Position numbers and translations under genes: made by a program. Positions 49,338 through 57,960 of a DNA stretch of 64,000 bases are shown in pieces (the stretch's first letter is position 1; each line of letters begins with the position of its first letter). Source of the stretch: Blastococcus tunisiensis (lineage in GTDB: Bacteria; Actinomycetota; Actinomycetes; Mycobacteriales; Geodermatophilaceae); contig NZ_FOND01000001.1 of assembly GCF_900112815.1 (NCBI RefSeq), positions 280,816-344,815 on the forward strand, read 5' to 3'. Under the pieces are notes generated by a model. It searched no databases and was not told the origin of the DNA. It was given only the letters and a program-made list of their open reading frames with translations.

Positions 49338-50553
49338 GCACCGGGACCACCCGCACCGCCCGGCGCCGCCCGAGGAGGGTCGCGACCACGATCGCGAGCG
49401 CACCCCCGCCGAGTGCGACCGGCACCCACGGGGACGACGTCCCGGCCGGGACGGGCCCCGCGCTCTGCCGCAGGGGCTCCGACGGGCGGGCCGGGGATGC
49501 GGTGGTCGACGGGGTGGGGAGCGGCGGGAGCTCCCCGGAGGCCACCAGGGTGCCCACCTCGTCGGCGCCGGCGGGGACGGTGAACCCCCAGTCGAGCAGC
49601 AGGGCCGCCTGGTCGGCCGCCCGCAGCGGGACGTTCTCGGTGTCCATGACGCTGACGACGAGCCGCCGGCCGTCCCGCTCGGCCGCGGTGACGAAGGCGT
49701 GGCGGGCGGCGTCGGTGAACCCGGTCTTGCCCCCGAGGTTCCCCGGGGTGCCGGCCAGCGGGTTCTGGTTCTGGATCTGGTAGCCGGGGGACCGGCCCTC
49801 GACGGCCGGCATGTCCGCGGTCGGCGTCGTGAGGATCTCCGCGGTCACGGGGTCGGCGACCAGCCGCCGGAAGATCAGCGCCAGGTCGTACGGGGAGGAG
49901 GACTGGCCGGCGACGTCCAGCCCCGACGGTGTCCCGGCCACGGTGTCGTACGCGCCGATCGCCTCCGCGGTCTCGTTCATCGCCGCGAGCGTGACCGGCA
50001 CGCCGCCGGCCGCCCGGGCCAGCGCGTTGGCGGCGTCGTTGCCCGACTGCAGGATCAGCGCCCGGTACAGCAGCCGGACCGGGTACCGGCCGCCGCGGAC
50101 GAGCCCGACCCGGCTGCCCTCGATGTTCTCGTCCTCCACGGTCCCCTCGACGACGGTCGCGGGATCCAGGAGAGGGACGAGGGTCAGCAGCGTCAAGGTC
50201 TTGAGGGTGCTGGCGGGGTAGTAGCGGCCGTGCGGGTCCCGTGCCGCCAGGACGTCCCCGGTGACGGCGTCGGCGACCAGCCACCCGCCGGCCGTCAGGC
50301 CCTCGGGCAGCGGCGGGGCGCCCTCGGCGACCACGGTCCGGCGGGTGTCCAGCTCCTCGCCGCCCACGGTCCGCCCGTCCGGCGCCGAGCCCTGCGGTGG
50401 CCGGCCGGGGTGCGGCGCCGTCGGGGTGGGCGCCGTGGGGTCGACTGTCGGGCGGGGTGCCTGGGCCGCGGCCGGACCGGCTCCGGCGAGGGCGATCAGC
50501 GCAGCGGCCAGGGCGGCCAGCGGCCACCGCATCCCCTCCGGGCGTCCCCTCAT
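49258..50553 (-). CDS. D-alanyl-D-alanine carboxypeptidase (DacB1-like, PBP5 family)
   Basis: The 431-aa secreted, C-terminally anchored protein trims pentapeptides in peptidoglycan. It has a signal peptide (about 7-30, MRWPLAALAAALIALAGAGPAAAQ), a Pro/Thr-rich linker, and the serine penicillin-binding motifs SxxK (PASTLKTL), SxN (QSGNDAAN) and KTG (GGKTGFTDAARH). A C-terminal membrane helix (PVALGGGALAIVVATLL) precedes a basic tail. ATG 50553 follows TAGCGT by seven bases. The last 26 codons overlap the convergent yihY gene. Confidence 0.92.
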   Translation of the reverse strand: MRGRPEGMRWPLAALAAALIALAGAGPAAAQAPRPTVDPTAPTPTAPHPGRPPQGSAPDGRTVGGEELDTRRTVVAEGAPPLPEGLTAGGWLVADAVTGDVLAARDPHGRYYPASTLKTLTLLTLVPLLDPATVVEGTVEDENIEGSRVGLVRGGRYPVRLLYRALILQSGNDAANALARAAGGVPVTLAAMNETAEAIGAYDTVAGTPSGLDVAGQSSSPYDLALIFRRLVADPVTAEILTTPTADMPAVEGRSPGYQIQNQNPLAGTPGNLGGKTGFTDAARHAFVTAAERDGRRLVVSVMDTENVPLRAADQAALLLDWGFTVPAGADEVGTLVASGELPPLPTPSTTASPARPSEPLRQSAGPVPAGTSSPWVPVALGGGALAIVVATLLGRRRAVRVVPVLTRGPDAPPGEGSPPRSAGGSTSTRP

Positions 50554-50560
50554 GGAAGGC

Positions 50561-50566
50561 ACGCTA
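50561..50566 (-). promoter_or_regulatory. -10 hexamer TAGCGT for the carboxypeptidase gene
   Basis: The hexamer is read on the minus strand and ends seven bases before the ATG at 50553, which decides the start over an upstream in-frame ATG. Confidence 0.55.
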
Positions 50567-50798
50567 AGGGGGACGGGGCCTCGCGCGGCCCAGGGGGTGA
50601 CCCAGCGCACGCCCGGCGGGGCAGTTCGCAACGATCGCATCTCAGTCCGGAACACAGCGCTGGTGTCGGCGCCCCGCGCGGTTAGCGTTCCTCAGTCCTA
50701 AGCGATCGAGTCCGGCCGGTGGCCGGGGCCGATGGATCCCTGACCCACCCGGGACGCACCCCGACGAGACCGTGCGTCCCCCCAGAGAGGAGATCGTC

Positions 50799-51857
50799 TT
50801 GCGCCGAGCGCGGATGACGAAGGCTGCGGCACTGCTGCTGGCCGGCAGCCTGGCCCTCGCGGCCTGTGCCAGCGACGAGGACGGGGGCGACGCCGCCACC
50901 GGCAACGGTGGCGGTGGCAGCGAGGACCTCAAGATCGGCGTCGCTTACGACACCGGCGGTCGCGGCGACCGCTCGTTCAACGACTCCGCCATCGCCGGCG
51001 TCGAGGCCGCGATCGAGGAGCACGGCGGCGAGGTCCGGGACCTGAGCCCCAACTCCGACGCCTCCAACCGCGTGGAGCTGCTCACCCAGCTCGCCGACGA
51101 GGGCTACAACCCCGTCATCGCCGTGGGCTTCGCCTACGGCGATGTCATCGCCGACGTCGTGGAGCAGTACCCGGACACCACGTTCGCGATCATCGACTCC
51201 TCGGTCGAGGAGATCGGTGCCGAGAACCTGACCGGCCTGCTGTTCGCCGAGGAGCAGGGCTCCTACCTCGCCGGTGTCGCGGCCGCGCTGAAGACCGAGA
51301 CCGACCACATCGGCTTCGTCGGCGGCGTCGAGACCCCGCTGATCCAGAAGTTCGAGGCGGGCTACGTCGCCGGCGCCACGGCCGTCAACCCCGACATCCA
51401 GGTCGACGTGCAGTACATCTCGCCGGCCGGTGACTTCTCCGGCTTCAACGACCCGGCCCGGGGGCAGATCGTCGCGCAGGGCATGTTCGACGCCGGGGCC
51501 GACATCGTCTACCACGCCGCGGGTGGCTCCGGCCTGGGCGTCTTCCAGGCCGCCGCCGCCTCGGGTGGCCGCGCGATCGGCGTCGACTCCGACCAGTACC
51601 AGACCGTCGACGACCCCGCGCTGCAGGCCGTGATCATGACCTCGATGCTCAAGCGCGTCGACAACGCGGTCGAGTCGTTCATCGACTCCTACGTCGAGGG
51701 TGACTTCGAGGGCGGCCAGGACGTCGTCTACGACCTCGAGTCCGAGGGTGTCGGCCTGTCCGACTCCGGCGGCTTCATCGAGGACATCCAGGGCGATATC
51801 GACGACTACCGCCAGCAGATCATCGACGGTGAGATCGAGGTCCCGACGACCCCGTGA
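50799..51857 (+). CDS. BMP-family nucleoside-binding lipoprotein (PnrA-like)
   Basis: This 352-aa lipoprotein is the extracellular receptor of a nucleoside ABC importer. It has a signal peptide with lipobox LALAAC, a Gly-rich spacer, and a BMP/PnrA domain (KIGVAYDTGGRGDRSFND, NPVIAVGFAYGDVI, FAIIDSSVEEI, GFVGGVETPLI, IVYHAAGGSGLGV). TTG 50799 is chosen because GAGAGGAG lies six bases upstream; ATG 50814 is possible. It is first in an operon with ATPase, permeases, cdd and deoA, which points to pyrimidine/purine nucleosides. Confidence 0.93.
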   Translation: MRRARMTKAAALLLAGSLALAACASDEDGGDAATGNGGGGSEDLKIGVAYDTGGRGDRSFNDSAIAGVEAAIEEHGGEVRDLSPNSDASNRVELLTQLADEGYNPVIAVGFAYGDVIADVVEQYPDTTFAIIDSSVEEIGAENLTGLLFAEEQGSYLAGVAAALKTETDHIGFVGGVETPLIQKFEAGYVAGATAVNPDIQVDVQYISPAGDFSGFNDPARGQIVAQGMFDAGADIVYHAAGGSGLGVFQAAAASGGRAIGVDSDQYQTVDDPALQAVIMTSMLKRVDNAVESFIDSYVEGDFEGGQDVVYDLESEGVGLSDSGGFIEDIQGDIDDYRQQIIDGEIEVPTTP

Positions 51858-52168
51858 TCCCCGGTCGCGGGCCCGCTCCGGCGGGCCCGCGACCACGGTC
51901 GACCCCGACGGCGGGTCCGGGCGCTCGCACCAGCGGTGCGGAACCCCGGGCCCGCCGTCGTGATCCGGGGTCCGTTCGGCGGGCCCCCGCCGAACCCGGT
52001 CCCCGCGCGGGGACCGCGGTGCGACATCATGCGGCCAGCCCGAACCGGGCGCCGCGGGAGTCCGCGCCCGGCCCGGGTTCCCGCCGGCCGACGGTCGATC
52101 CCGTCGCCGGCGCCGACGGACAGCCGTGCGCCGCGCACCCGTGGCAGCACACGAGCGAGAGGCCCACC
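51858..52168 (+). other. structured intercistronic region between the binding protein and ATPase genes
   Basis: The 311 bases contain no good ORF but four consecutive stem-loops. These are a perfect 13-bp stem (51863-51875 with 51880-51892); a long stem at 51906-51960 with a GCACC-agc-GGTGC hairpin in its loop; GTTCGGCGGG paired with CCCGCCGAAC (51974-51995); and the palindrome GGTCCCCGCGCGGGGACC (51998-52015). They probably lower expression of distal genes relative to the binding protein, or act as a regulatory RNA. Confidence 0.6.
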
Positions 52169-53782
52169 ATGGCCGCAACAGGAGGAACCGGGGACGGCCC
52201 GCCCCCGGGTGCACGGTCCGGTGACGCCTACGCCGTCGAGCTGCGCGGCATCACCAAGCGCTTCCCCGGGGTGGTCGCCAACCGCGACATCGAGCTGCGG
52301 GTCCGCCGCGGCGAGGTGCACGCGATCGTCGGGGAGAACGGCGCGGGCAAGTCGACGCTGATGAAGACCCTCTACGGGATGCACCGCCCCGACGAGGGGA
52401 AGATCCTGCTCGACGGCCGCGAGGTGCACTTCAAGAGCCCGGCCGACGCCATCGAGGCCGGCATCGGCATGGTGCACCAGCACTTCATGCTGGCCGACAA
52501 CTTCACCGTCCTCGAGAACGTCGTCCTCGGCAGCGAACCCACCAAGGGCGTCCGGCTCGACCGGGCCGAGGCCCGGCGTCGCATCCGGGAGATCTCCGAG
52601 CGGTACTCGCTGGACCTCGACCCCGACGAGCTGGTCGAGAACCTCGGCGTCGGCGCGCGGCAGCGGGTCGAGATCGCCAAGGTGCTCTACCGCGGGGCGA
52701 CCGTCCTCATCCTCGACGAGCCGACGGCGGTGCTGGTGCCGCACGAGGTCGACGAGCTGTTCGGCAACCTGGCCGAGCTCACCCGCGAGGGCCTGACGGT
52801 CATGTTCATCTCGCACAAGCTCGACGAGGTGCGCCGCGTCGCCGACGCCATCACCGTCATCCGCCGCGGCACGACCGTCGGGACGGCGGATCCGCGGACG
52901 ACGACGGTCAAGGAGCTGGCCGAGATGATGGTCGGCTCGGAGCTGCCCTCCCCGGAGACCCGCAGTTCCACGGTGCGCGACGAGCCGGTCCTGGTCCTGC
53001 GCGGCCTCACCGTGCGCTCGCGCGAGGGGCGGGCGCTCGTCGACGACGTCGGCCTCACCGTGCGGGCCGGCGAGGTGGTCGGCATCGCCGGGGTCGAGGG
53101 CAACGGCCAGGCCGAGCTCGTCGACGCGATCATGGGCCTGCGCCCGCTCGCCGCCGGGCAGGTCCAGCTCGACGGCGGCACCACCGGCGACGGCGGGGAC
53201 GTCGCCGGGCTGGAGGACATCACCGGCTGGAGCACCCGGGCCCGCCGCGAGGCCGGCCTCGGTTTCATCCCGGAGGACCGGCACCGGCAGGGCATCCTGC
53301 TCGACGCGCCGCTCTGGGAGAACCGGATCCTGGGCCACCAGACGCTGCCGCCGGCCGCCAAGGGCCAGTTCATCGACCGCAAGGCGGCCCGTGCCGACAC
53401 CGAGCGGATCATGCAGGAGTACGACGTGCGGGCGCCCGGACCGGACACCCTCGCCGTCGCGCTGTCCGGCGGCAACCAGCAGAAGCTCATCGTCGGACGC
53501 GAGATGAGCTCGAGCCCGCGGCTGCTCATCGCCGCCCACCCCACGCGCGGCGTGGACGTCGGCGCCCAGGCCGCGATCTGGGAGCTGCTCAAGGACGCCC
53601 GGGCCGAAGGAATGGGAATCCTGCTGATCTCCGCCGACCTCGACGAGCTCATCGGCCTGTCGGACACGCTGCAGGTGATGCTGCGCGGCCGGCTCGTCGC
53701 CACGCTCGACCCGGCCACCGTCACACCCGAGGACCTCGGCGGGTACATGACCGGGGCCCGGAGCGCGGCGGGTGCCGCATGA
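52169..53782 (+). CDS. nucleoside ABC transporter, dual ATPase subunit
   Basis: The 537-aa product is a tandem ATPase of the sugar/nucleoside importer type. The first domain has Walker A GENGAGKST, a divergent signature NLGVGARQRVEIAK and Walker B VLILDEPTAVL. The second has a noncanonical P-loop region (GIAGVEGNGQAEL), signature ALSGGNQQKLIVGREM and a degenerate Walker B (LLIAAHPTRGVDVG). Asymmetric sites are usual in this family. ATG 52169 has GAGAGG upstream. It is coupled to the permeases by a 4-base overlap. Confidence 0.95.
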   Translation: MAATGGTGDGPPPGARSGDAYAVELRGITKRFPGVVANRDIELRVRRGEVHAIVGENGAGKSTLMKTLYGMHRPDEGKILLDGREVHFKSPADAIEAGIGMVHQHFMLADNFTVLENVVLGSEPTKGVRLDRAEARRRIREISERYSLDLDPDELVENLGVGARQRVEIAKVLYRGATVLILDEPTAVLVPHEVDELFGNLAELTREGLTVMFISHKLDEVRRVADAITVIRRGTTVGTADPRTTTVKELAEMMVGSELPSPETRSSTVRDEPVLVLRGLTVRSREGRALVDDVGLTVRAGEVVGIAGVEGNGQAELVDAIMGLRPLAAGQVQLDGGTTGDGGDVAGLEDITGWSTRARREAGLGFIPEDRHRQGILLDAPLWENRILGHQTLPPAAKGQFIDRKAARADTERIMQEYDVRAPGPDTLAVALSGGNQQKLIVGREMSSSPRLLIAAHPTRGVDVGAQAAIWELLKDARAEGMGILLISADLDELIGLSDTLQVMLRGRLVATLDPATVTPEDLGGYMTGARSAAGAA

Positions 53783-54978
53783 GCGTCGTCCGCCGCATGG
53801 GGATGGCGCTGTTCGCGCCCGTCCTCGCCGTCGTCGGCGCGCTGGTCATCTCCACCGCCGTCATGGCCGCGTTGCAGGTGAACCCGCTGCGCGTCTTCGA
53901 GGTGATGGTCGACTTCGGTGACTCGCCGGCGCAGCAGATCACCGCGCTGGTGGTGATCCTCAACCGCGCCATCCCGCTGTTCCTCGCGGGTCTGGCGGTC
54001 GCGATCGCGTTCCGCATGGGCCTGTTCAACATCGGCGTCGAGGGGCAGTACCGGCTGGCCACGATCGTGGCGGCGGCGGCCGGCGCGGCCGTGACGCTGC
54101 CCGGGCCGCTGCACGTGCTGTTCATCATCGCGGTGGCGGTGGTGGTCGGGGCCTTCTGGGCCGGCATCGTCGCGGTGCTCAAGGTGACCCGGGGCGTCAG
54201 CGAGGTCATCAGCTCGATCATGCTGAACTTCATCGCGCTGGGGCTGGCGTCCTACCTGCTCACCGGACCGTTCCGGGGCAGCGAGGAGGGCGCCTCCATC
54301 ATCAGCACGGCGGAGATCCCGGAGTCGGGTCAGCTCGGCGGCCTGAACGCCGTCTTCGACGTGCTGGGCCTGGCGAACCCGCCGCGGCAGCTCTACGGCT
54401 TCCTGCCGCTGGCGATCGTGCTGGGCGTCGCCCTCGCCGTGCTGCTCAACCGCACCCGCTTCGGCTACGACCTCAAGATCAGCGGCATGTCGCCGTCGGC
54501 GGCCGGGGCGAGTGGCGTCGACGCCCGCGCGATGGTGCTCAAGGCGATGCTGCTGTCGGGTGCGGTCGCCGGGCTCATCGGCCTGCCCGACCTGTTCGGC
54601 ACCACCCACTCCTACACGACCGACTTCACCGCCGGCCTGGGCTTCCTCGGTATCGCCGTTGCGCTGCTGGGGCGCAACCGGCCGCTGGGCATCGCCTTCG
54701 CCGCCCTGCTGTTCGCCTTCCTGGACCGCGCCCTGGTGCCGCTGCAGATCGCGGACTTCCCGGCCTCGGTCGTCACCATCATCCAGGGCACCATCGTGCT
54801 CGCCGTCGTGGTCGCCAACGAGGTCGCCCGGCGGGTCACCCGCCGGTCGGCCGAGCGGGGCAGCGCGGAGCCGCCCGCCCCGGTGGCGGGGGACGGCGGT
54901 TCCGCCGCGATGCAGACGCCGAGCGGTCCGGCCGGGCCGGCCGGGGACACCGACGAGCGGCAGGGGGCGCCGAGATGA
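53779..54978 (+). CDS. nucleoside ABC transporter permease 1
   Basis: The 399-aa product has about eight to ten membrane helices of the BPD_transp_2 family (FRMGLFNIGVEGQY, RGVSEVISSIMLNFIALGLASYL, GMSPSAAGASGVDARAMVLKAMLLSGAVAGLIG). The C-terminal tail is Pro/Ala/Gly-rich and disordered. It overlaps the ATPase and the second permease by four bases on each side (ATGA), typical of a translationally coupled importer complex. Confidence 0.95.
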   Translation: MSVVRRMGMALFAPVLAVVGALVISTAVMAALQVNPLRVFEVMVDFGDSPAQQITALVVILNRAIPLFLAGLAVAIAFRMGLFNIGVEGQYRLATIVAAAAGAAVTLPGPLHVLFIIAVAVVVGAFWAGIVAVLKVTRGVSEVISSIMLNFIALGLASYLLTGPFRGSEEGASIISTAEIPESGQLGGLNAVFDVLGLANPPRQLYGFLPLAIVLGVALAVLLNRTRFGYDLKISGMSPSAAGASGVDARAMVLKAMLLSGAVAGLIGLPDLFGTTHSYTTDFTAGLGFLGIAVALLGRNRPLGIAFAALLFAFLDRALVPLQIADFPASVVTIIQGTIVLAVVVANEVARRVTRRSAERGSAEPPAPVAGDGGSAAMQTPSGPAGPAGDTDERQGAPR

Positions 54979-56255
54979 GCACCGTGGTGACCTCACCGGG
55001 GACCCGGCCGAGCCGTGGTCCGCTCACCGACCTGCTGACCGGTGGCGGCAAGGGGCGGCGGTTCCTCTGGATCGCCCTGGCGGTGATCGTCCTCGTGTCG
55101 CTGGTGCGGGTCATCAGCGGCGAGGAGGCGCTGACGTCGTCCTCGACGATGTCTGCCGCGTTGCTGCTGGCCGTGCCGATCGGGCTGGCCGCGCTGGGCG
55201 GGCTCTTCTCGGAGCGCGCGGGCGTGGTCAACATCGGCCTCGAGGGCATGATGATCCTCGGCACCTGGGGGGCCGGCTACGCCGGCTACCAGTGGGGCTG
55301 GGGTGCCGCACTCGTCGGCGGGGTGCTCTTCGGCGCCCTCGGCGGGCTGCTGCACGCGATCGCCACGGTGACCTTCGGCGTCGACCACGTGGTGTCCGGC
55401 GTGGCGATCAACATCCTGGCCGCCGGGGTGGCGCGCTTCCTGTCCGAGCTGTTCTACACCGACAACCCGGCCGGTGGCGGTGTCACCCAGTCGCCGGCCA
55501 TGTCCAGTGACCCGCCGCGGCTGTCGCTGCCGGTGCTGTCCTCGGGCCCCGACCTGCTCGGCGACCTGGAGCGGCAGCACTGGTTCCTGATCAGCGACAT
55601 CGCCGGCGTCCTGCGCGGGCTCACGGGTGACATCGGCGTGCTGACGATCCTGGCCGTGCTCCTGATCCCGGCGTCCTACCTGCTGCTCTGGCGGACGGCG
55701 TTCGGTCTCCGGCTGCGGTCGTGCGGGGAGAACCCCGCGGCCGCCGACTCGCTGGGCGTCGCGGTCTACCGGATGAAGTACATCGCGGTGATCATCTCCG
55801 GCGGGCTGGCGGGCATGGGCGGGGTGTTCCTCGTCTTCATCGCCGGCATCTACCGGGAGAACCAGACCAACGGCCGCGGCTTCATCGGCCTGGCCGCGCT
55901 GATCTTCGGCAACTGGCGTCCGGGCGGCCTCGCCACGGGCGCGGGGTTGTTCGGGTTCGCCGACGCGCTGCAGCTGCGCAGCCGCTCGGCGGTGGTGGCG
56001 CTGCTGCTGCTGGTCGCCGTCCTGCTGGCCGGTGTCGCGGTGTGGCAGTCGGTGCGCCGGCGCCTGCTCCAGGCGATCCTGGCCGGTGCGTTCGCCGCCG
56101 CGGCCCTCACCGGCTTCGTCCTGATCGACGAGCTCCCGCCGGGCATCGTGTCGTTCACCCCGCACCTGACCACGCTGCTCGTGCTCTCCCTGGCGTCCCA
56201 GCGATTGCGCATGCCCCAGGCCGACGGCCTGGTCTACCGACGAGGAGAGCACTAG
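54975..56255 (+). CDS. nucleoside ABC transporter permease 2
   Basis: The 426-aa product belongs to the BPD_transp_2 family (LFSERAGVVNIGLEGMMILG, FGVDHVVSGVAINILAAGVARFL, LRSCGENPAAADSLGVAVYRMKYIAVIISGGLAGMGG). Additional hydrophobic segments at the C-terminus suggest a few extra helices. The stop TAG shares one base with the GTG of cdd. It partners with permease 1 to form the membrane channel. Confidence 0.95.
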   Translation: MSTVVTSPGTRPSRGPLTDLLTGGGKGRRFLWIALAVIVLVSLVRVISGEEALTSSSTMSAALLLAVPIGLAALGGLFSERAGVVNIGLEGMMILGTWGAGYAGYQWGWGAALVGGVLFGALGGLLHAIATVTFGVDHVVSGVAINILAAGVARFLSELFYTDNPAGGGVTQSPAMSSDPPRLSLPVLSSGPDLLGDLERQHWFLISDIAGVLRGLTGDIGVLTILAVLLIPASYLLLWRTAFGLRLRSCGENPAAADSLGVAVYRMKYIAVIISGGLAGMGGVFLVFIAGIYRENQTNGRGFIGLAALIFGNWRPGGLATGAGLFGFADALQLRSRSAVVALLLLVAVLLAGVAVWQSVRRRLLQAILAGAFAAAALTGFVLIDELPPGIVSFTPHLTTLLVLSLASQRLRMPQADGLVYRRGEH

Positions 56256-56680
56256 TGGCGGCGGTACGGCCGGACTGGGACGCCCTGCGGGCGGCCGCAC
56301 GCGAGGCCATGACGCACGCGTACGCGCCGTACTCGAGATTCCCGGTCGGGGTGGCCGGGCTCGTGGACGACGGCCGGGTCGTGACCGGCTGCAACGTGGA
56401 GAACGCCTCCTACGGGCTGGGCCTGTGCGCCGAGTGCGGCATGGTCAGCGACCTGGCCCGCACCGGCGGCGGCCGGCTCGTCGCGGTGGCGTGCGTGGGC
56501 GGCGACGGGCAGCCCCTGATGCCGTGCGGACGGTGCCGCCAGCTGCTGTGGGAGCACGGAGGGAAGGACATGCTCATCGAGACCGTGTCGCTGGGGATCG
56601 TGCCGATGGCCGAGGTGCTGCCCGACGCCTTCGGACCGGACGACCTGATCGCGGCCGCCGGGCGGGGGCAGGGCCGATGA
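56255..56680 (+). CDS. cdd: cytidine deaminase
   Basis: This 141-aa zinc enzyme converts cytidine and deoxycytidine to uridine and deoxyuridine. The zinc ligands are C58, C91 and C94, and the catalytic E60 lies in the C-A-E motif; TGCNVENASYGLGLCAECG and MPCGRCRQLLWE are intact. GTG 56255 overlaps the permease stop and has GAGGAG upstream. Its stop overlaps the deoA ATG. It salvages imported nucleosides. Confidence 0.96.
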   Translation: MAAVRPDWDALRAAAREAMTHAYAPYSRFPVGVAGLVDDGRVVTGCNVENASYGLGLCAECGMVSDLARTGGGRLVAVACVGGDGQPLMPCGRCRQLLWEHGGKDMLIETVSLGIVPMAEVLPDAFGPDDLIAAAGRGQGR

Positions 56681-57960
56681 GCAACGCCTTCGACGCGATC
56701 GACGTGATCCGGGCCAAGCGGGACGGCGTCCCGCTGTCCGCCGGGCAGATCCGCTGGGTGGTCGACGCCTACACCCGGGGGGTGGTGCCCGACGAGCAGA
56801 TGAGCGCACTGCTCATGGCGATCTTCTTCCGCGGGATGTCCGGGGACGAGCTGGCGGCCTGGACCCAGGCGATGATCGACTCCGGCGAGCGGAAGGACCT
56901 CTCCTCCCTCGGCCGGCCCACCGCCGACAAGCACTCCACCGGCGGGGTCGGTGACAAGATCACGCTGCCGCTGGCTCCGCTGGTCGCCGCCTGCGGGGTC
57001 GCGGTGCCGCAGCTGTCCGGCCGCGGGCTCGGGCACACCGGCGGCACGCTGGACAAGCTGGAGGCCGTCCCCGGGTGGCGGGCCGACGTGCACGAGGAGG
57101 CCTACCTCCGGCAGCTGCGCGAGGTGGGCGCGGTGATCTGCGCGGCGGGCAACGACCTGGCGCCGGCGGACAAGCTGCTCTACGCGCTGCGCGACGTCAC
57201 CGGCACGGTGGAGTCGATCCCGCTGATCGCCAGTTCGATCATGAGCAAGAAGATCGCCGAGGGCGCCGACGCGCTGGTCCTCGACGTGAAGACCGGTTCG
57301 GGCGCCTTCATGAAGAGCGCCGAGGACGCCCGCACGCTGGCCCGCACGATGGTGGGGCTGGGGGAGGCGGCCGGCGTCCGGACGGTGGCGCTGGTGACGG
57401 CGATGGACCGGCCGCTGGGTCGTGCGGCGGGCAACGCCGTCGAGGTGGCCGAGTCGGTCGAGGTGCTCGCCGGGGGCGGGCCGGCCGACGTCGTCGAGCT
57501 GACCCTCGCCCTGGCGCGGGAGATGCTGGCCGGGGCGGGCCGCGACGACGTCGACCCCGCGGACGCGCTGGCCGACGGGCGTGCCATGGACGTGTGGCGC
57601 GCGATGATCGCCGCCCAGGGCGGCGACCCCGACGCCCCGCTGCCGTCGCCGGCGGAGACGCACGTCGTCACCGCCCCGGCGACCGGCACGCTGACCCGGC
57701 TGGACGCGTTCTCCCTCGGGGTCGCGGCGTGGCGGCTGGGGGCGGGCCGGGCGCGCAAGGAGGACCCGGTCTCCGCGGCGGCCGGCGTCGTCTGGCGCGC
57801 GGGCGTGGGGGAGCAGGTCACCGCCGGTCAGCCACTCCTCGAGCTGCAGACCGACGACGCCGCGCGCATCCCGCGGGCGCTGGAGGCGCTGGAGGGCGCG
57901 GTCGGCGTCGACACCGGCGAGCAGCCCCTGCCGCTGATCCTGGACCGCATCACCGCCTGA
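56677..57960 (+). CDS. deoA: thymidine phosphorylase
   Basis: The 427-aa enzyme splits thymidine and deoxyuridine to base and deoxyribose-1-phosphate. Motifs are DKHSTGGVGDKITLPLAPL (phosphate binding), SGRGLGHTGGTLDKLE, SSIMSKKIAEGADALVLDVK, MDRPLGRAAGNAVEV, and a C-terminal barrel-sandwich domain (LGVAAWRLGAGRARKED). ATG 56677 overlaps the cdd stop. It is last in the nucleoside uptake and salvage operon. Confidence 0.97.
   Translation: MSNAFDAIDVIRAKRDGVPLSAGQIRWVVDAYTRGVVPDEQMSALLMAIFFRGMSGDELAAWTQAMIDSGERKDLSSLGRPTADKHSTGGVGDKITLPLAPLVAACGVAVPQLSGRGLGHTGGTLDKLEAVPGWRADVHEEAYLRQLREVGAVICAAGNDLAPADKLLYALRDVTGTVESIPLIASSIMSKKIAEGADALVLDVKTGSGAFMKSAEDARTLARTMVGLGEAAGVRTVALVTAMDRPLGRAAGNAVEVAESVEVLAGGGPADVVELTLALAREMLAGAGRDDVDPADALADGRAMDVWRAMIAAQGGDPDAPLPSPAETHVVTAPATGTLTRLDAFSLGVAAWRLGAGRARKEDPVSAAAGVVWRAGVGEQVTAGQPLLELQTDDAARIPRALEALEGAVGVDTGEQPLPLILDRITA

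Follow-up and report, generated by a model that had tools for sequence, protein, structure and literature searches.

Conserved hairpins, a promoter-like block and a structured leader in the gap between the binding-protein and ATPase genes of a nucleoside-type ABC importer operon in Blastococcus and related Geodermatophilaceae

Purine, nucleoside and base riboswitches form a known class of metabolite-sensing leader RNA. A different kind of element is found inside the operons of ABC importers, where stem-loops after the gene of the binding protein are established as partial terminators (PMC9045158). In that report, long GC-rich stems with few U residues terminated transcription with efficiencies of 20.7–96.1% in a clostridial reporter operon, and in its types II–IV the 3' U-rich tract is reduced or hardly visible (PMC9045158). 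Stable, U-poor hairpins are also a measured class of 3' ends in Streptomyces clavuligerus (72.5% GC), where a term-seq study describes them as I-shaped or "HS-U-lack" (PMC8269248). In actinobacteria the dual hairpin RNAs that are targets of ANTAR proteins consist of two neighbouring leader hairpins with hexaloops whose first position is A and whose fourth is G (PMC8164766).

The window analysed here is a 64,000-nucleotide stretch of the genome of Blastococcus tunisiensis; all features described below lie on its forward strand. It contains an operon that begins with a BMP-family lipoprotein, the binding protein of a nucleoside-type ABC importer (50799–51857), and continues with an ATPase comprising two ATPase domains (52169–53782), two permeases (53779–54978 and 54975–56255), a cytidine deaminase (cdd, 56255–56680; NCBIfam NF004064, above cut-off) and a thymidine or pyrimidine-nucleoside phosphorylase of the deoA type (56677–57960; NCBIfam NF004490, above cut-off). 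The start codon of the binding protein is probably TTG, as read from the conserved sequence MRRARM. The binding protein matches an NCBIfam BMP-type model and the transporter proteins in general match BMP/B6-type models, all of them under the curated cut-off, and the assignment of the importer to nucleosides therefore rests on the neighbouring genes. The only junction without an overlap is the one between binding protein and ATPase, which are separated by 311 nt (51858–52168). The four remaining junctions overlap, at 53779–53782 (ATPase/permease), 54975–54978 (permease/permease), 56677–56680 (cdd/deoA) and by the single base 56255 (second permease/cdd). Both the length of the gap and the overlap of all other operon genes had been described correctly in an earlier, sequence-only reading of this DNA.

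The gap as a whole folds with a predicted energy of -214.1 kcal/mol compared to -183.1 ± 5.3 kcal/mol for shuffled sequences (z = -5.8, none of 100 shuffles as stable). A match to the binding protein is present in 15 of 16 genomes of the genus. Close copies with identities of 69–100% were found at 15 loci, including the window's own, in 14 of these genomes, and one further genome has nothing beyond a fragment and a distant paralog. From the GTDB collection we took 80 named orthologous loci, 79 of which have an ATPase match at most 1500 bases downstream. After removal of duplicates and of rows that could not be placed, 51 gaps from Geodermatophilaceae formed the working set. The orthologous gaps share, in their sequences, the composite make-up of the 311-nt gap with a recurrent order of elements: a hairpin HP1 (in the Blastococcus group), a second hairpin HP2, a stretch that varies, a box resembling a -10 element, a leader and the ribosome-binding site. 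Stable structure directly after the stop codon of the binding protein (z < -2) occurs in 50 of the 51 gaps. Of 31 gaps in other families, which judging from the genus names we take to be mostly Streptosporangiaceae and some Micromonosporaceae, 28 open with a stable hairpin (z < -2 for the initial 75 nt). Outside the Geodermatophilaceae the gap is mostly shorter. Many gaps of Nonomuraea and related genera (L092–L120) have a shorter hairpin of the GGGCCCGGAGTCC...CTTCGGGCCTTCTGTCT type after the binding-protein gene, which comes near to a textbook internal terminator.

The reading frame of the ATPase is open back through the gap (51854–53782), as it would be if the gap encoded an N-terminal extension of the ATPase. 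We regard such an extension as very improbable. The gap lengths of the 15 loci of the genus fall into all three classes modulo 3, because of which the gap is read as non-coding; conservation is confined to stems and blocks, and a ribosome-binding site lies right before position 52169. The gap was also considered as a dispersed repeat. This was rejected, as the genome holds no second full copy and its best other match reaches 45 bits over 43 nt, on a different contig.

HP1 (51863–51894) follows directly after the stop codon of the binding protein and has a loop of the sequence UCCG. The sequence-only reading had recognized it as a perfect stem of 13 bp; the stem is indeed perfect, its length is 14 bp. 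HP2 (51906–51960) had been described as a branched stem of about 55 nt. The length of 55 nt was confirmed, but the structure is one unbranched hairpin with a stem of 16 bp and a 3x3 internal loop. Both stems are GC-rich, with predicted energies of -37.5 kcal/mol over 40 nt for HP1 (z = -6.1) and -48.8 kcal/mol over 63 nt for HP2 (z = -5.7).

Pairing in HP1 and HP2 was counted on plain MAFFT alignments made from the sequences without structural information. In each hairpin 94.3% of the cells are paired (19 rows for HP1 and 31 rows for HP2, the window included). The 19-row alignment contains 16 double-change cells for both hairpins together compared to 1–6 with slid partners, and the 31-row alignment of HP2 contains 38 compared to 4–14. 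Further pair types were not clearly above chance in the 19-row alignment, where 56 of 500 shuffles reached the count. To count changes along lineages we employed a tree built from the two proteins (binding protein and ATPase). On this tree HP1 shows 8 double compensatory changes (0–3 with slid partners) and HP2 18 (0–5); none of 200 re-dealt sets reached either number. HP2 is visible by eye in 49 of the 51 family gaps, being absent in L016 and L057. Under a stricter automated criterion the count was 47 (absent in L057, L067, L075 and L113), and one of these 47, L016, is in fact HP1. The Blastococcus form of HP1 was counted as a motif in 22 of the 51 gaps. The locus L016 belongs to the same genus as the window; it has an unrelated short hairpin in the place of the lost HP2 and retains HP1 together with a variant promoter-like block (TGCGACAAGATGCGCG).

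The U-content downstream of these stems differs between branches. UUUU follows HP2 in Modestobacter loci and UUUCU in three of four Klenkia loci, whereas neither HP1 nor HP2 of the window is followed by a U-run, and a consensus scan of positions 50500–52300 yielded no terminator-like site with a U-tract. In L050 (4583–4650) and further gaps of Modestobacter, UUUUCC stands immediately after HP2 and leads into GTGTGTACCGTC, so that the terminator-like hairpin abuts a -10-like box within about 20 nt.

HP1 and HP2 resemble the internal terminators of ABC importers from Ruminiclostridium cellulolyticum and other Clostridia in position, in the long GC-rich stem and in the low number of U residues; the gene order, with the binding protein first and the translocator genes after it, is also the same (PMC9045158). 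In contrast to the clostridial examples, the hairpins of the Blastococcus group occur in tandem, the window has no U-tract, and downstream lie a block that looks like a promoter and then a structured leader (PMC9045158). Two of the features that define internal terminators are present, the stem-loop in the gap and a GC-rich stem with a minimum length of about 7 bp. The 3' U-rich tract is missing in the window and present in the Modestobacter relatives, and for this reason we say that HP1 and HP2 would work like internal terminators and do not call them members of the class.

The hairpins can also be compared with the HS-U-lack ends. Both lie below -23 kcal/mol, with the reservation that our energies refer to 37 °C instead of 30 °C and that the 40-nt segment was not set by a mapped end, and in both the 8 nt that follow the stem contain fewer than 3 U (PMC8269248). 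They differ from this class by their location inside an operon, and the class is defined by mapped 3' ends while HP1 and HP2 are known from their sequence (PMC8269248). Taken by analogy, the two hairpins most likely represent a leaky internal terminator or a 3'-end protector.

It is conceivable that the hairpins do nothing but protect mRNA 3' ends after cleavage by a nuclease, with neither termination nor an internal promoter. The very stable stems of the window, which lack U-tracts, would suit this role, and the stability of terminal stems is likewise discussed in the clostridial report (PMC9045158). We nevertheless consider protection as the sole function unlikely in view of the U-runs that come after this hairpin in Modestobacter and in the majority of Klenkia loci, and of the separately conserved promoter-like block downstream. 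Attenuation in favour of the binding protein, which had been suggested for the first stem, is the likeliest role of HP1 and HP2: both covary, hairpins of the HP2 type follow the binding-protein gene throughout the family, and U-runs are found in the Modestobacter/Klenkia branch, though not in the window's copy.

Two palindromes further downstream had been counted among the elements of a structured RNA. Both exist, with 9 bp at 51974–51995 and 8 bp at 51998–52015. Over 13 relatives, however, only about half of the aligned cells are paired (35 of 70 and 51 of 104, respectively), which is approximately the level of slid controls elsewhere, and we rejected them as conserved structures.

Downstream of the palindromes lies a conserved block, TGCGACATCATGCGGC, at positions 52020–52035, with the -10-like hexamer CATCAT at 52025–52030. 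The corresponding pattern, TGCGNSATCATGCGGC, was detected at 21 sites, in 12 of 16 genomes of the genus and 19 of 112 genomes of the family, compared to 3 occurrences of the reversed control pattern in all 112 family genomes. With the exception of L125, all of these sites (20 of 21, the window's own included) adjoin matches to the binding protein and the ATPase, both of which are partial at L138. Within the genus the block is nearly fixed, whereas its flanks vary. A -10-like hexamer of some kind is located between HP2 and the start of the ATPase in 50 of the 51 gaps; this number is a description and not a test, because the patterns were chosen after the sequences had been seen. The box reads TACCGT or TACGGT in 13 gaps of the Modestobacter/Klenkia branch, and GAGGAT, GAGAAT or CAGAAT in 7 of 12 loci named Geodermatophilus. 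No -35 element is apparent in the gap sequences of the family, and the consensus scan of 50500–52300 found no sigma-70 promoter. From the conserved block and its hexamer we infer, with moderate confidence, an internal promoter around 52025–52030.

The block is at the same time an imperfect palindrome and could be the operator of a transcription factor instead of a promoter. Sixteen nearly fixed positions, which are more than a bare -10 box needs, and the lack of a visible -35 element speak for an operator. The genome, however, contains only one exact copy of the block. Three further copies deviate by one mismatch (one copy) or two mismatches (two copies), compared to 6 copies of the reversed control pattern, and the one-mismatch copy sits within a coding region, presumably that of pyruvate kinase as recognized from the protein sequence. 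In addition, other genera have TACSGT, GAGRAT or CAGAAT in this position instead, as one would expect if it were a -10 box. An operator is accordingly the less convincing interpretation and, in our judgement, not a probable one.

The region between the putative internal promoter and the ATPase contains two hairpins that the sequence-only reading had not singled out. HP-A (52082–52112) has a variable stem and a conserved loop, (c)GAyC, with a fold z-score of -3.9. HP-B (52126–52150) has the loop CACC or UACCC and a z-score of -2.3, with 4 of 200 shuffles as stable. The linker between both hairpins is conserved. HP-B ends 6 nt before GAGAGG (52157–52162), the ribosome-binding site for the ATPase, which is conserved in the leader alignment as well.

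RNAalifold predicted only 7 pairs (-0.8 kcal/mol) from a plain 15-row alignment, because the variable stems fall out of register there. The structure was then placed by hand on a seed of 11 rows and the sequences were re-aligned with a covariance model. Such a re-alignment leans toward the hand-placed structure; the tree count, the slid controls and the extra genomes are meant to offset this. At E ≤ 0.005 the 11-row model matches 25 of 38 loci of the Blastococcus/Geodermatophilus group, 14 of them outside the seed (two of the 14 repeat seed sequences), and does not match the other 13. The Modestobacter, Klenkia and Goekera loci searched gave no match at the leader; several of them nonetheless have hairpins with (A/C)GACC loops. 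In 22 distinct rows, 13 of 19 pairs changed on both sides, with 38 double-change cells compared to 1–10 for slid partners, and 22 of 500 shuffles reached the number of further pair types. The protein tree gave 20 double compensatory changes (13 in HP-A, 7 in HP-B) compared to 0–5 with slid partners, a number that none of 200 re-dealt sets reached. In a further set of 19 loci, of which 10 contribute sequences that did not enter the model, 84.4% of the cells are paired and there are 38 double-change cells (4–11 slid). By these compensatory changes, which exceed the controls, HP-A and HP-B are a conserved structured RNA. The expectation of a structured RNA in the remainder of the gap thus holds for these two hairpins, which covary, and fails for the two palindromes it had named. 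Our calculations establish conserved pairing for HP1, HP2, HP-A and HP-B within the aligned sequences, as well as the conservation of the block at 52020–52035. Conserved pairing in orthologous operons was the check on which the sequence-only reading had staked its claim, and the claim withstood it.

A second leader model gave 45 matches in 43 of 108 family genomes. All 30 matches that were inspected in sequence, and L181 in addition, are located between the genes of the binding protein and the ATPase. Among 14 other matches, two at E ≤ 1e-5 (G011:C262 and G108) and several weaker ones are at the known operon by their coordinates, and at least one weak match (G002:C7, E = 0.004) is on a contig other than that of the genome's operon. 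Every match at E ≤ 1e-5 in the 108 genomes belongs to this operon. The window's genome holds one strong copy. Of 394 genomes sampled from the class, 10 match the leader model at E ≤ 0.005. Two of them, the window's genome and another member of the family, match at this operon; the other eight lie outside the family, their matches are weak (E from 2e-4 to 0.004), and neither the binding-protein nor the ATPase gene was found in the flanking stretches. Searches of Rfam 15 with the window and 16 related loci produced no match at the gathering score; the sole match was at chance level (E = 9.1) and on the other strand. The stability of the leader is unremarkable (z < -2 in 17 of 51). Across the 51 leaders the ribosome-binding region is unpaired with a median of 0.42 (range 0.21–0.68) and hence neither consistently buried nor free.

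Like the ANTAR targets, which come closest among the two-hairpin leaders considered here, HP-A and HP-B are two neighbouring leader hairpins in an actinobacterium. They deviate from the hexaloops given for these targets, since the HP-A loop, UCGAUC, has U at position 1 and A at position 4 and the loop of HP-B in the window has 4 nt (PMC8164766).

With nucleoside or base riboswitches the element shares its position as a leader RNA ahead of nucleoside transport genes, but it has no Rfam match, no junction or pseudoknot was seen in it, and it occurs in a single gene context. One might suppose that HP-A and HP-B answer a signal, by binding either an RNA-binding protein or a metabolite related to nucleosides, and thereby set the translation of the transport genes. 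The covarying stems, the conserved loops (c)GAyC and (C/U)ACC, the conserved linker and the short distance of HP-B from the ribosome-binding site would all be compatible with such a cis-regulatory RNA. The architecture is simple, however, the genome has a single strong copy, the matches checked show one gene context, the ribosome-binding site is not consistently sequestered, and HP-A is unrecognizable in several close relatives (e.g. L012 and L013). A signal-responsive leader is for these reasons quite unlikely. For the sensing of a ligand, which had been raised for the structured part of the gap, we found nothing in its favour: there are two simple hairpins, one strong copy in the genome and a single gene context in those matches that were checked. 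A related proposal is that HP-A and HP-B are an undescribed cis-regulatory RNA restricted to the Geodermatophilaceae, which would be recognized by a protein or a nucleoside-related ligand via the loops (c)GAyC and (C/U)ACC and would control how much is made of the transporter and salvage proteins separately from the binding protein; this we regard as rather unlikely. Among the titles and beginnings of abstracts that literature searches for the leader or the operon listed, none dealt with the HP-A/HP-B leader.

Based on these results we propose that the gap is a module which partitions expression and combines an internal terminator, an internal promoter and a structured leader. We assign this reading a probability of roughly 0.6. 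Transcription from a promoter upstream of the binding-protein gene would cross this gene and reach HP1 and HP2, where a fraction of the transcripts would stop or pause and where the stems would protect the 3' ends so formed. As a result, the cell would produce more binding protein than membrane parts. Read-through of the hairpins and initiation at the internal promoter would both supply mRNA for the ATPase, the permeases, the cytidine deaminase and the phosphorylase. This second mRNA would carry a short leader with HP-A and HP-B, which probably stabilize its 5' end and shield the region of the start, perhaps through a bound protein. The overall interpretation of the sequence-only reading is thereby supported in part.

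Within this proposal, the terminator part would be another instance of a known device, and the arrangement of promoter and leader turns it into a variant; only the HP-A/HP-B leader RNA may represent something new in kind. The hairpin after the binding-protein gene, as a device of ABC importers, would thus extend to GC-rich actinobacteria, and the comparative evidence points to selection on the stems despite the absence of a U-tract from the window's copy. The leader is a covariation-supported RNA that is absent from the Rfam copy searched. If RNA mapping agrees, termination, re-initiation and a structured leader would jointly set subunit ratios from within one gap.

Further conserved elements were observed upstream of the binding-protein gene. 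About 150 nt before its start lies the block TTCGCAACGATCGCATCTCAGTCC (50625–50648), whose flanks vary. In the alignment of the upstream region 14 of 15 rows of the genus reach this block, most of them nearly identical and L016, L018 and L019 less so. It is possibly an operator of the whole operon or part of a promoter. A -10-like hexamer, TAGCGT, at 50683–50688 is likely to mark the main promoter of the operon; a block of the GGTTAGCGT type is present in 15 rows of the genus, among which L014 and L021 each show one difference. A 9-bp hairpin (50751–50780, fold z = -4.0) immediately precedes the ribosome-binding site of the binding-protein gene. The presence of a hairpin before the ribosome-binding site in this leader, too, suggests a general feature of expression rather than a sensor. 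Its arms, seen by eye, are GGGACGCAC and GTGCGTCCC, with apparent compensatory changes in relatives, e.g. GGGGCGC/GCGCCCC in L020.
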